A stretch of DNA of 64,000 nucleotides from Nitrosomonadales bacterium (lineage in GTDB: Bacteria; Pseudomonadota; Gammaproteobacteria; Burkholderiales; Gallionellaceae), in NCBI GenBank assembly GCA_016214695.1, contig JACRNY010000001.1, positions 124,001 to 188,000 of the forward strand. The letters run 5' to 3'. The position numbers were made by a program, and so were the translations under genes. This document shows, in pieces, positions 11,252-18,509 of this stretch (position 1 is the first letter of the stretch; the number at the start of each line of letters is the position of its first letter). The notes under the pieces were generated by a model. It saw nothing but the letters and a program-made list of their open reading frames with translations. It searched no databases and was not told the DNA's origin.

Positions 11252-12391
11252 TCATTTCAATTTTATCTCGGTCCAGATGCGCGACAGCACGCGGCGCTGG
11301 TGGCGGTCGAGATCGCGCAGCATCTCCAGCCGCACCTGCTGCGCCTTGTCGGGGAACACCGCCGGGCTTTGCGCGATCTCCGGCTGGATATATTGCCGCG
11401 CCGCGCGGTTGGGATTGCCGGAACCGATCAGGTTGGTGAGCTCGGAGGAGTTGCGACCGTCCAGCATGAAATCGATGAAGCGGTGCGCGAGGTCAGGGCG
11501 CGGCCCGCTCTTGTGCAGCACCATCGAATCCAGCGCCAGCACCGCACCCTCCTTGGGGATGCTGGCGAGGATGCGGAAACCGCGTTGCGCCTTCTGTGCG
11601 TCGAGGTCGGCCTGGAAGATGTCGTTGGAATAGCCGAGCACCAGCCAGATGTTGCCGACCGTCAGTTCCTTGATGTAGCTCGAGGCGTTGAACGCGGCCC
11701 AGTAAGGCTTGGCGCGGATGATGAGGTCGCGTGCCTGCTTCCAGTGTTCTTCGTTCGTATCGTTGGCCGAATAGCCGAGATACTTCAGCGCGGCGGCGAG
11801 CAGTTCGCGCTGACTGTCGAGCACGGTGACGCGGCCTTTCAGTTTCTCCAGATAATGCGGCTCGAAGATGACCGCCCAGCTGTCCACCGGCAGTTGCAGT
11901 TCGCGCATCTTCGCGTCGTTGTAACCGATTAGCGTGAGGGTGTAGGCATACGGCACCGAGTAGCGGTTGCCGGGATCGAACACGGTGTTCATATAGGCCG
12001 GTTCGATGCTGCCGAGCTTGGGCAGCAGGCTCTTGTCGAGCGGGCGCAAGGCGCGCTGACGGATCAGCGATTCCATCGCGTTACCGGTCGGCACGATGAG
12101 GTCGTAACCGCTCGCCCCCGCCGCCAGCTTGGCCAGCATCTCTTCGTTGTCGGAGTAGTAGTCCTGCACCACGCGACAGTTGCACTCCACCTCGAAACGC
12201 GCCACGGTGGCGTCGGAGATGTAGTTGTTCCAGTTGTAGAGATGGAGAGTGTCGGTGGCTTGGGCTGGAACAAACGACAAAACAAACCATAAGCCACAGA
12301 GGGCACAGAGATCACAGAGAAACCCGCTGCTCCCTGCAGCTCTGCTGCATTCTCTGTGGACTCTGTGTTCTCTGTGGCAAATGTCTTTCAT
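11252..12391 (-). CDS. potD: Spermidine/putrescine ABC transporter periplasmic-binding protein
   Basis: TDTLHLYNWNNYISDATVARFE...; ATGA overlap with potC; signal peptide partly built from a dispersed repeat. Confidence 0.85.
   Translation of the reverse strand: MKDICHREHRVHRECSRAAGSSGFLCDLCALCGLWFVLSFVPAQATDTLHLYNWNNYISDATVARFEVECNCRVVQDYYSDNEEMLAKLAAGASGYDLIVPTGNAMESLIRQRALRPLDKSLLPKLGSIEPAYMNTVFDPGNRYSVPYAYTLTLIGYNDAKMRELQLPVDSWAVIFEPHYLEKLKGRVTVLDSQRELLAAALKYLGYSANDTNEEHWKQARDLIIRAKPYWAAFNASSYIKELTVGNIWLVLGYSNDIFQADLDAQKAQRGFRILASIPKEGAVLALDSMVLHKSGPRPDLAHRFIDFMLDGRNSSELTNLIGSGNPNRAARQYIQPEIAQSPAVFPDKAQQVRLEMLRDLDRHQRRVLSRIWTEIKLK
12293..12378. repeat. CACAGAG-type inverted repeat, copy 1 (overlaps potD 5' end)
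   Basis: GCCACAGAGGGCACAGAGATCACAGAGAA ... TTCTCTGTGGACTCTGTGTTCTCTGTGGC. Confidence 0.9.
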
Positions 12392-13164
12392 GTTTTGCCT
12401 TTCAGCACATCCGGCGCGAACCGCGACGCCAGCACGATCATGCTCAGCGTGAGCAGCATCAGCAGCGTGGAGACCGCATTCACTTCCGGCGTCACCGCGA
12501 TCTTTATCATCGAGTAGATGCGCAGCGGCAGCGTCTGCACGCCGACCCCAGCGGTGAAGAAGGTGATGACGAAGTCGTCGATGGAGAGGGTGAAGGCCAT
12601 CAACCCGCCAGCGATCACCGCGGGCAGGATGAGCGGGAAGGTGACGTAGCGGAAGGTCTCCCACGGCGAAGCGCCGAGGTCGCGCGCGGCTTCGAACAGG
12701 CTGTCGTCCATGCCGGCCAGCCTTGCGCGCACGATGACCGCGACGAAGCCGATGGAGAAGGTAATGTGCGCGAGCACGATGGAGAGCATGCCGAGCGTGA
12801 GGTTGAGCACCTGGATGAAGAACAGCAGCAGCGACACGCCCAGCAATATCTCGGGCATCGCCACCGGCGTGAGCGCCATGAAGTTGAGCAGCTTGAGGTC
12901 GTAGCGGTGGATGGCCATGCCGGCCATGGTGCCGAGCAGCGTGGCGACAAAGGCGGAGACGAAAGCGATGAACAGCGAATTGCCCGCCGCCAGCAGCATC
13001 TCCTCATCGTGGATGAGCACGTCGTACCAGTGCAGGGTGAAGCCCACCCACTCGGCGTTCAGGCGCGAGTCGTTGAAGGAGTACACCACCACTATGGCGA
13101 GCGGCAAGTAGAGGAAGGCGTACACCGCCAGCGCCGCCGCCCATAGCCACGGCCCCCTACGCAT
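12388..13164 (-). CDS. potC: Spermidine/putrescine ABC transporter permease
   Basis: Binding-protein-dependent permease with EAA-like region EAARDLGASPWETFRYVTFPLILPAV; start chosen at MRRGPWLW. Confidence 0.9.
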   Translation of the reverse strand: MRRGPWLWAAALAVYAFLYLPLAIVVVYSFNDSRLNAEWVGFTLHWYDVLIHDEEMLLAAGNSLFIAFVSAFVATLLGTMAGMAIHRYDLKLLNFMALTPVAMPEILLGVSLLLFFIQVLNLTLGMLSIVLAHITFSIGFVAVIVRARLAGMDDSLFEAARDLGASPWETFRYVTFPLILPAVIAGGLMAFTLSIDDFVITFFTAGVGVQTLPLRIYSMIKIAVTPEVNAVSTLLMLLTLSMIVLASRFAPDVLKGKT

Positions 13165-14065
13165 AGTGCCTCCCCCGCCCGGCAAGTCGGGTCGTCAGCC
13201 AGACGATCAGCAGCACCGTGACGGTCAGCATGATGGACAGCGTGGAACCGAATGGCCAGTCGCGTGTGCCGAGGAATTGTTCCTTGATGAGGTTGCCGAT
13301 CAGCATGTCGCCGGTGCCGCCGAGGATGTCGGGGATGGCGAACATGCCGAGTACCGGGATGAACACCAGCGCGGAGCCGGAGAAGATGCCGGGCAGCGAC
13401 AGCGGGAAGGTCACGCGCCAGAAGCGATGCCAGACATTGGCACCGAGGTCTTGTGCGGCGTCGAGCAGCGCGGGGTCGTGCTTCTCCAGGTTGGTGTACA
13501 GCGGCAGCACCATGAACGGCAGGTGCACGTAGACCATGCCGACCAGCACCGCGAACGGCGAGAACAGCAGATGCACCGGCTCCATGCCGAAGAGCGCGAG
13601 CACGCCGTTGACCGCCTGGCTGAACGCGGCCTGCGGGCCGAGGATGATCATCCAGGCATACACGCGCACCAGGAAGTTGCTGGCGAACGGCAGCACCACC
13701 AGCAGCACCATCAGGTCGCGGCTCTTCTTCGGGCTGCGCGCGATGAGCAGCGCGAGCGGATACGCCAGCAGCAGGCAGATCAGCGTGGTGGCGAGCGCGA
13801 CGAAGATGGATTTGAGGAAGACGTAACCGTAGATGATGTCGCTGAAAAAAAACTCGTAGGTCTCGACGGTGAGACCGTGCAGGGTCTGGGTATCGGCGAA
13901 CAGCGGCGCGAGGCCGCCGAACTCGCCGGGATAACGGAACGAGGCGAGCACCATGATGACGCTGGGGGCGACGAAGAACAGCAGCAGGAAGACGAACGGC
14001 GGGCCGCTCACCAGCCAGCGGGTGAGGCGTGATGCCCGAGATGATTTGTCGCTGGAGTCAGCCAA
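13157..14065 (-). CDS. potB: Spermidine/putrescine ABC transporter permease
   Basis: Permease TM pattern and DAAQDLGANVWHRFWRVTFPLSLPGI. Confidence 0.9.
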   Translation of the reverse strand: MADSSDKSSRASRLTRWLVSGPPFVFLLLFFVAPSVIMVLASFRYPGEFGGLAPLFADTQTLHGLTVETYEFFFSDIIYGYVFLKSIFVALATTLICLLLAYPLALLIARSPKKSRDLMVLLVVLPFASNFLVRVYAWMIILGPQAAFSQAVNGVLALFGMEPVHLLFSPFAVLVGMVYVHLPFMVLPLYTNLEKHDPALLDAAQDLGANVWHRFWRVTFPLSLPGIFSGSALVFIPVLGMFAIPDILGGTGDMLIGNLIKEQFLGTRDWPFGSTLSIMLTVTVLLIVWLTTRLAGRGRHYA

Positions 14066-14085
14066 AGTACTGCCCCCCAGTTATC

Positions 14086-14191
14086 CGTTCGCCCTGAGCC
14101 TGTCGAAGGGCTCCGGTTGCTTCGCCGGTGCTTTGATACAGTTTTTCGTCCGGCGCGCCGTTCCTTCCTTCGACAGGCTCAGGACGAACGG
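14086..14191. repeat. TTCGACAGGCTCAGG palindromic repeat between potA and potB
   Basis: Arms 14086-14111 and 14167-14191 with internal GGCGCGCCG core. Confidence 0.9.
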
Positions 14192-14223: not shown

Positions 14224-15309
14224 TCAGTCATGGAGGAACATCCCCGCATCGTGACGCCAGCCCAGCTTGACCGCGTCACCCGCCTCGAACAGTTGCGCGC
14301 GGCCCGAGGCCGAGTTCGGCAACAACGCCTCCAGCATCGCGCCGTTCGCCAGCCCGACGCGGTACACGGTGACGTCGCCCTGATACAGCAGGCTCTTCAC
14401 CTCGCCGCTGAAGTGGTTCTTCAGTTCGCTCACTTCGTCGTGGATGCCGATGCGCACCTGCTCGGGGCGGATCGCGTACACACCCTTGTCGCCGGCCTTT
14501 GCCTCCGCCAGCGGCGGCGCGACGATCTCACCCAGCCCTGCCACAGCAAGGCGCAGGTGGCCATGCGCGGCTTCCACCACCTGTGCTTCGAGCTGGTTGA
14601 TCTGGCCGATGAAGTCGGCGACGAAGCGGTTCTGCGGCGCGCTGTAGAGTTTCGACGGTTCGTCCAGTTGCTCGACCCGGCCCGCGTTCATCACCGCGAT
14701 GCGGTGCGACAGCGCCAGCGCCTCCACCTGCGCATGGGTGACGAAGACGAAGGTGATGCCGACATCGCGCTGCAGATTGATGAGGTCCACCTGCATCTCT
14801 TCGCGCAGCTTGGCATCCAGCGCGCCCAGCGGCTCGTCGAGCAGCAGCAGGCGCGGCCGGTTGACCAGCCCGCGTGCCAGCGCCACGCGCTGCTTCTGGC
14901 CGCCGGAAAGTTCGTGCGGATAGGCTGCGGCTTTGTCGACAAGATGCACCTGCTCCAGCATCTCGTTGAGCATGCTGCGCTGCTCGGACTCCGGGCGGCG
15001 CGCCATCCTGAGCGGAAAGGCGATGTTCTCGGCCACGGTCAGATGCGGGAACAGCGCGTAGTTCTGGAACACGGTGTGAACGGGACGCTTTTCGGCCGGC
15101 GTGTCGGCGAGGTCCTGGCCGTCGAGCAGGATCTGCCCGGCATCGGGCAGGTCGAAGCCGGCGATCATGCGCAGGATGGTGGTCTTGCCGCAGCCGGAGG
15201 GACCCAGCAGGGTGAAGAACTCCCCCGATTCGATACTCAGACTGACATCGTCCACGGCGACGAAATCGCCGAAGCGGCGCGTGACGTTCCTGAGTTCCAA
15301 TCGAGCCAT
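14224..15309 (-). CDS. potA: Spermidine/putrescine ABC transporter ATP-binding protein
   Basis: MARLELRNVTRRFG; GPSGCGKTT Walker A, LSGGQKQRVALARG signature, LLLLDEPLGALD. Confidence 0.93.
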   Translation of the reverse strand: MARLELRNVTRRFGDFVAVDDVSLSIESGEFFTLLGPSGCGKTTILRMIAGFDLPDAGQILLDGQDLADTPAEKRPVHTVFQNYALFPHLTVAENIAFPLRMARRPESEQRSMLNEMLEQVHLVDKAAAYPHELSGGQKQRVALARGLVNRPRLLLLDEPLGALDAKLREEMQVDLINLQRDVGITFVFVTHAQVEALALSHRIAVMNAGRVEQLDEPSKLYSAPQNRFVADFIGQINQLEAQVVEAAHGHLRLAVAGLGEIVAPPLAEAKAGDKGVYAIRPEQVRIGIHDEVSELKNHFSGEVKSLLYQGDVTVYRVGLANGAMLEALLPNSASGRAQLFEAGDAVKLGWRHDAGMFLHD

Positions 15310-15377
15310 ATCGTTCCACCCGGTGATTGTCTGCACCGATATTACTGCATCGACAACCCGCGTGCCTCCCTCCCCCA

Positions 15378-17094: not shown

Positions 17095-17197
17095 GCCACA
17101 GAGAACACAGAGTTCACAGAGAAAGCCGTATCGCATTCAACGTGCGGAGCTATGAATTCAAACCGTACCTCTCTGTGACCTCTGTGTTCTCTGTGGC
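17095..17197. repeat. CACAGAG-type inverted repeat, copy 2 (prpB-prpC junction)
   Basis: GCCACAGAGAACACAGAGTTCACAGAGAAA ... CTCTGTGACCTCTGTGTTCTCTGTGGC. Confidence 0.9.
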
Positions 17198-18404: not shown

Positions 18405-18509
18405 GCCACAGAGGACACAGAGATCACAGAGAAAGCCTGTTCCCACATTCAGAGCTCAGCGTTGAAAGCCTTTGTCGTACTTCTCTGTGCCCTCTGTGTT
18501 CTCTGTGGC
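18405..18509. repeat. CACAGAG-type inverted repeat, copy 3 (prpC-prpD junction)
   Basis: GCCACAGAGGACACAGAGATCACAGAGAAA ... TTCTCTGTGCCCTCTGTGTTCTCTGTGGC. Confidence 0.9.

Follow-up and report, generated by a model that had tools for sequence, protein, structure and literature searches.

A dispersed palindromic repeat that lies mostly outside genes occupies the first codons of potD in this genome, raising the question of whether a conserved transporter protein now owes its export signal to a mobile sequence. Within the 64,000-nucleotide stretch of DNA that was analysed (the window), the potD ORF (11252-12391, minus strand) encodes a 379-residue putative polyamine ABC transporter substrate-binding protein. 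It follows potA (14224-15315), potB (13157-14065) and potC (12388-13155), all on the minus strand, in the operon order potA-potB-potC-potD. A profile search places PotD in the Pfam family SBP_bac_8 with a score above the cut-off, while the best NCBIfam models are those of PotF/PotD, for which the scores fall under the equivalog cut-offs. The family profile together with the potABC genes upstream identifies the product as a PotD/PotF substrate-binding protein.

The initial annotation had described an 86-bp CACAGAG dyad covering codons 5-33 of potD, as well as an ATGA overlap of the potD start with the potC stop. Both were recovered, with the core of the dyad at 12293-12378 (GCCACAGAG...CTCTGTGGC), the potD ATG at 12391-12389 and the potC TGA at 12390-12388. 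The genome-wide consensus of 60 arms extends past this core (GGC-TAAnn-GGTTTT), hence the element-derived stretch, including the AT-rich ends (GGCtaannGGTTTT consensus), covers approximately 12284-12388 or codons 2 to ~36. The arms of the potD element are 82% complementary, and the RNA fold has an energy of -56.1 kcal/mol (z = -6.2 versus dinucleotide shuffles). Both arms are composed of 9-bp units which, in a single frame, encode a basic HRxHRxHR pattern on one arm and a hydrophobic LCxLCxLCG pattern on the opposite arm. In the potD sense, the first arm (12352-12378, minus strand) translates as CHREHRVHR(E) and corresponds to the n-region, while the second (12293-12319, minus strand) translates as LCDLCALCG, the first part of the h-region. 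A neighbouring open frame of the element encodes acidic TENTE, and would not serve as a signal.

Hydropathy, charge and alignment of the AxA motif predict a signal peptide of codons 1-45 (12257-12391, minus strand), with cleavage between AQA and TDT. Translation gives the same PotD N-terminus as had been proposed, along with the suggestion that the repeat had been co-opted as a secretion signal. The repeat very probably supplies the n-region and first part of the core, to which the element contributes CHREHRVHRE and LCDLCALCGLW(F), but not the c-region and cleavage site. The end of the core and AQA-TDT are native sequence, with the AxA aligning to that of repeat-free orthologues, and the evidence thus supports a predicted signal peptide that is only partly made of the dispersed repeat. 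The hydropathy of the element-bearing core falls in the range of native signal peptides. The peptide itself is long (45 aa), with a weak n-region charge (net ~+1 to +2) and an Asp in the core, and its agreement with a type I Sec pattern is one of simple descriptors (basic n-region, hydrophobic core, AxA). It presumably works as a cleaved Sec signal, in which case PotD would be exported.

A comparison with PotDs lacking the repeat, as the initial annotation had proposed, revealed a different and short signal peptide, read from the equivalent potC-overlapping start. We read 80 potD loci, obtained from a scan with one genome per species, from the potC stop into the mature protein. In most orthologues the native signal peptide has only 14-20 residues, including the Gallionella relatives L044, L078, L079 and L085 with MMWRSLLFLLFIGSAYA-like sequences. 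An in-frame CACAGAG element is present in eight Gallionella-group potDs (our own, L069, L070, L071, L072, L074, L075 and L082), and a CACGAAA element in three (L073, L076 and L084). Five more contain further families: CACAGAGG units (L102, L106), CACGGAG units (L117), GCGAAGG units (L103) and a related form (L046). All of these are open in frame, and repeats of several families have inserted at one site of potD. Scoring dyads as inverted arms, strong dyads were found at 15/80 potC-potD junctions, compared to 0/72 potB-potC junctions and 0/157 windows inside potC or potD. The L080 potD, in which the hairpin is gone (z -0.5) while the open frame and peptide pattern are retained, is only probably a decayed copy. 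L077 and L081 contain a different repeat upstream of a seemingly native start, possibly representing an intermediate stage. An inverted repeat of this family is also present in the potA-potB gap of the window (14085-14191; CCGTTCGCCCTGAGCCTGTCGAAGG / CCTTCGACAGGCTCAGGACGAACGG).

In the phylogeny of mature PotD sequences, those with and those without a repeat are interleaved, many Gallionella branches being poorly supported; sister pairs that differ are L082/L100, L070/L085 and L072/L044. The L070 and L082 elements have a 60-bp extra stretch in common (GCCACATAACCAGCGACTTGGCTG...TACATCAGAG) while their PotDs are not sisters, which may reflect recombination or else a compound element. One spacer subfamily (TTTTGCGAGTTGGGC...GCCCATCC...AAACC) is seen in the L071, L074 and L075 potD elements, and also in the intergenic elements L025 and L034 of our own genome (G000), suggesting that interiors undergo exchange or are copied along with the element.

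The reading frame through the element is evidently maintained. The eight CACAGAG potD elements have interiors of unequal length (59 to 128 bp), but every one of these is 2 mod 3 and leaves the HR to LC frame open; elsewhere in our own genome this applies to 11/58 element-strand instances. The codon at which the second arm is exited (codon 34, 12290-12292, minus strand) is TTA (Leu) in potD, while 30/60 genomic arms have TAA. Its second base is A in 58/60 genomic arms (32 of which have a stop) and in 0/8 potDs, where the codon is TTA, ATA or TCA (Leu/Ile/Ser) in every case. This change keeps a stop out of the frame and in most cases contributes a hydrophobic residue. The distance from start to element is 13 or 28 bp in the eight potDs, with 15 codons following the element in 6/8. 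These like junction distances indicate an identical insertion site, and the insertion itself may be common to these potDs through descent or recombination; the eight cases possibly derive from one or two insertions, and the counts are therefore not independent. A Fisher test of the used against the other frames was discarded, as reading in +1 invariably runs into the potC TGA and an open used frame is built into the comparison; its p-values, which count the potDs as independent, are also optimistic.

A different start codon, which the initial annotation had named as an objection to its own reading, was also considered. The only later in-frame start is a TTG at codon 38, leaving 8 residues before the cleavage site, and no in-frame start other than the ATG could give a signal peptide. 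A likely ribosome-binding site, GAAAGG (12398-12403, minus strand), is located within the end of potC, and most potD orthologues have a similar purine-rich stretch ahead of the start. Given the conserved frame, the exit codon, the lack of a usable later start and the GAAAGG motif, translation of PotD very probably includes the element.

We consider it likely that a palindrome inserted after the potD start, was tolerated and now forms part of the PotD export signal. In this model, a short non-autonomous CACAGAG palindrome would have inserted just behind the start codon in a Gallionella lineage. A basic arm followed in phase by a hydrophobic arm is arranged like a Sec signal peptide, and the insertion could have been tolerated because the arms encode these two stretches. 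Translation would then proceed from the old potC-overlapping ATG through the element into what is left of the native signal peptide, with its AxA. Loss of the native n-region and of the beginning of the native core, with the arm-exit TAA now reading TTA (Leu), would mean that PotD export may now depend on the element. Seen directly in the sequence are the element, its open and maintained frame, the replacement of the N-terminus, the native origin of the cleavage site and the insertion of several repeat families here. We infer that the insertion brought no benefit but was tolerated, becoming indispensable once the native n-region was lost; tolerance and this loss suffice to explain the observations.

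An unlikely alternative is that the element persists between potC and potD on account of its RNA hairpin, which would adjust potD expression or the decay of the mRNA, while the peptide just stays open. A role of this kind has been proposed for REP-type hairpins in the intergenic gaps of transporter operons, and would fit both the occurrence of several repeat families at a single operon junction and the very stable hairpins of most element-bearing potDs (z -2.5 to -9.7). However, the hairpin is located within the coding region, downstream of the start codon, and the exit-codon change and the phase of the element point to selection on the peptide. Furthermore, the likely decayed L080 has kept the frame without the hairpin, and many relatives have neither hairpin nor element. 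It is very improbable that the insertion damaged potD, leaving a non-working, Cys-rich long leader on a gene heading for loss: atypical leader length and composition and the Asp in the core would fit, but the mature protein is intact and, in relatives with and without the element alike, well conserved, the AxA site is retained and a stop codon is avoided in 8/8. That translation begins past the element, making it a spacer outside the protein, is possible in some relatives (L077 and L081, with their upstream repeat, or L073, L084, L103 and L117, where an ATG immediately follows the repeat) but hardly credible for our own potD, which retains the potC-overlapping ATG with GAAAGG upstream and has no usable in-frame start past the element, all CACAGAG cases moreover being open in frame despite their length differences.

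The preferred model, insertion followed by dependence, has partial precedents. For Yersinia YPO1552, a YPAL/RU-2 repeat was proposed to make up part of the signal peptide (Delihas 2007, reviewed in PMC2229807), and Rickettsia palindromic elements (RPE) are short palindromes located in frame in conserved genes (PMC2229807, PMC10969869). As in YPO1552, a dispersed palindromic element lies in frame in potD and partly forms the predicted signal peptide. In contrast, YPO1552 is a new hypothetical exported protein, while potD is a conserved transporter gene with its signal replaced, for which repeat-free orthologues exist and several repeat families occur at one site. The RPEs likewise are short in-frame palindromes inside conserved genes, but these are found in many genes and at many positions, whereas CACAGAG is found in one gene at one position, with the other genomic copies outside genes. 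In-frame palindromes in genes and a proposed, partly repeat-derived signal peptide are already known; what differs here is the combination of a conserved gene, a single site, several repeat families and repeat-free orthologues. The potD loci offer a clear comparison in which mobile palindromes have rewritten the predicted export signal of a conserved gene. Repeat-free relatives, possible intermediates and a probable decayed copy render the course from insertion to dependence testable.

In the 2.66-Mb genome the half-site GCCACAGAGNNCACAGAG was counted 66 times and the reversed pattern 0 times, so the repeat is not due to chance. These half-sites correspond to ~31-33 CACAGAG elements with variable interiors; numerous, short, built of inverted arms and for the most part located outside genes, these resemble MITE-like elements. 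The two further copies previously noted in the window, at 17095-17197 and 18405-18509, are indeed present and intergenic. A second gene with the element as signal peptide was sought across the genus, with no convincing case found. Long open frames over other elements were mostly shadow frames or genes starting downstream, such as fliI: the L029 element (contig 4, 122553-122638) is directly upstream of fliI and shares its open frame, with fliI keeping its own ATG downstream. A literature search covering few subscription papers returned no description of the CACAGAG family or of Gallionella repeats, and nothing relevant on GxxExxY/PDDEXK_3, the nuclease family considered below.

One CACAGAG copy of 418 bp (L165, contig 5, 91929-92346), with arms identical at 32/32 positions, encloses a PDDEXK_3/GxxExxY gene (PF13366; 91957-92304). 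Across the genus, 11/13 such genes have an inverted arm on either side, and the family of the arms varies with the nuclease (CACAGAG, CACGAAA, CGCAGAT, CGCCAAG, CACGGAT, GCGGAGG). When the genus and order were combined (L165, L166-L178 and L179-L207), matching arms were found at the gene ends in 31/42 loci compared to 3/336 shifted controls; several of the loci without matching arms are contig ends, partial genes or have weaker arms. The nucleases retain the GxxExxY, D and ExK motifs. Those associated with CACAGAG form one clade (100/96), which also takes in a divergent member of another family. The distribution of arm families tracks the nuclease tree, with 13 label changes versus 19.6 in shuffles (0/200 as low), to which near-copies contribute. 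CACAGAG half-sites are more numerous in gene-bearing genomes (p = 3e-5, with no correction for assembly quality or relatedness).

The nuclease-bearing copies are probably the autonomous form of the palindromes, and the GxxExxY PD-(D/E)XK-type nuclease of these full-length copies may mobilise the short copies, although the gene could also be cargo. REP/RAYT systems are similar in that dispersed short palindromes flank an enzyme gene in some copies; in REP the gene is that of RAYT (Y1_Tnp), while CACAGAG arms flank PDDEXK_3/GxxExxY. A RAYT partner for CACAGAG was rejected, as none of the three Y1_Tnp genes in the genome is flanked by CACAGAG dyads. We propose a superfamily of palindromes with ~9-bp units (CACAGAG, CACGAAA, CGCAGAGG, CGCAAAGG, CGCAGAT, CGCCAAG and others). 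It is an evenly balanced proposition that these are maintained by the GxxExxY/PDDEXK_3 nucleases between cognate arms and that short copies repeatedly became PotD leaders. Such a repeated origin, if true, would reflect paired arms that encode a ready-made basic-plus-hydrophobic leader. The GxxExxY nuclease family emerges as a candidate enzyme for orphan repeats in bacteria, a class that is widespread.

One arm of an element in genome G028 (contig 1, 2720442-2720567) contains approximately ten tandem GCCACAGAG 9-mers, which suggests unit expansion by slippage.
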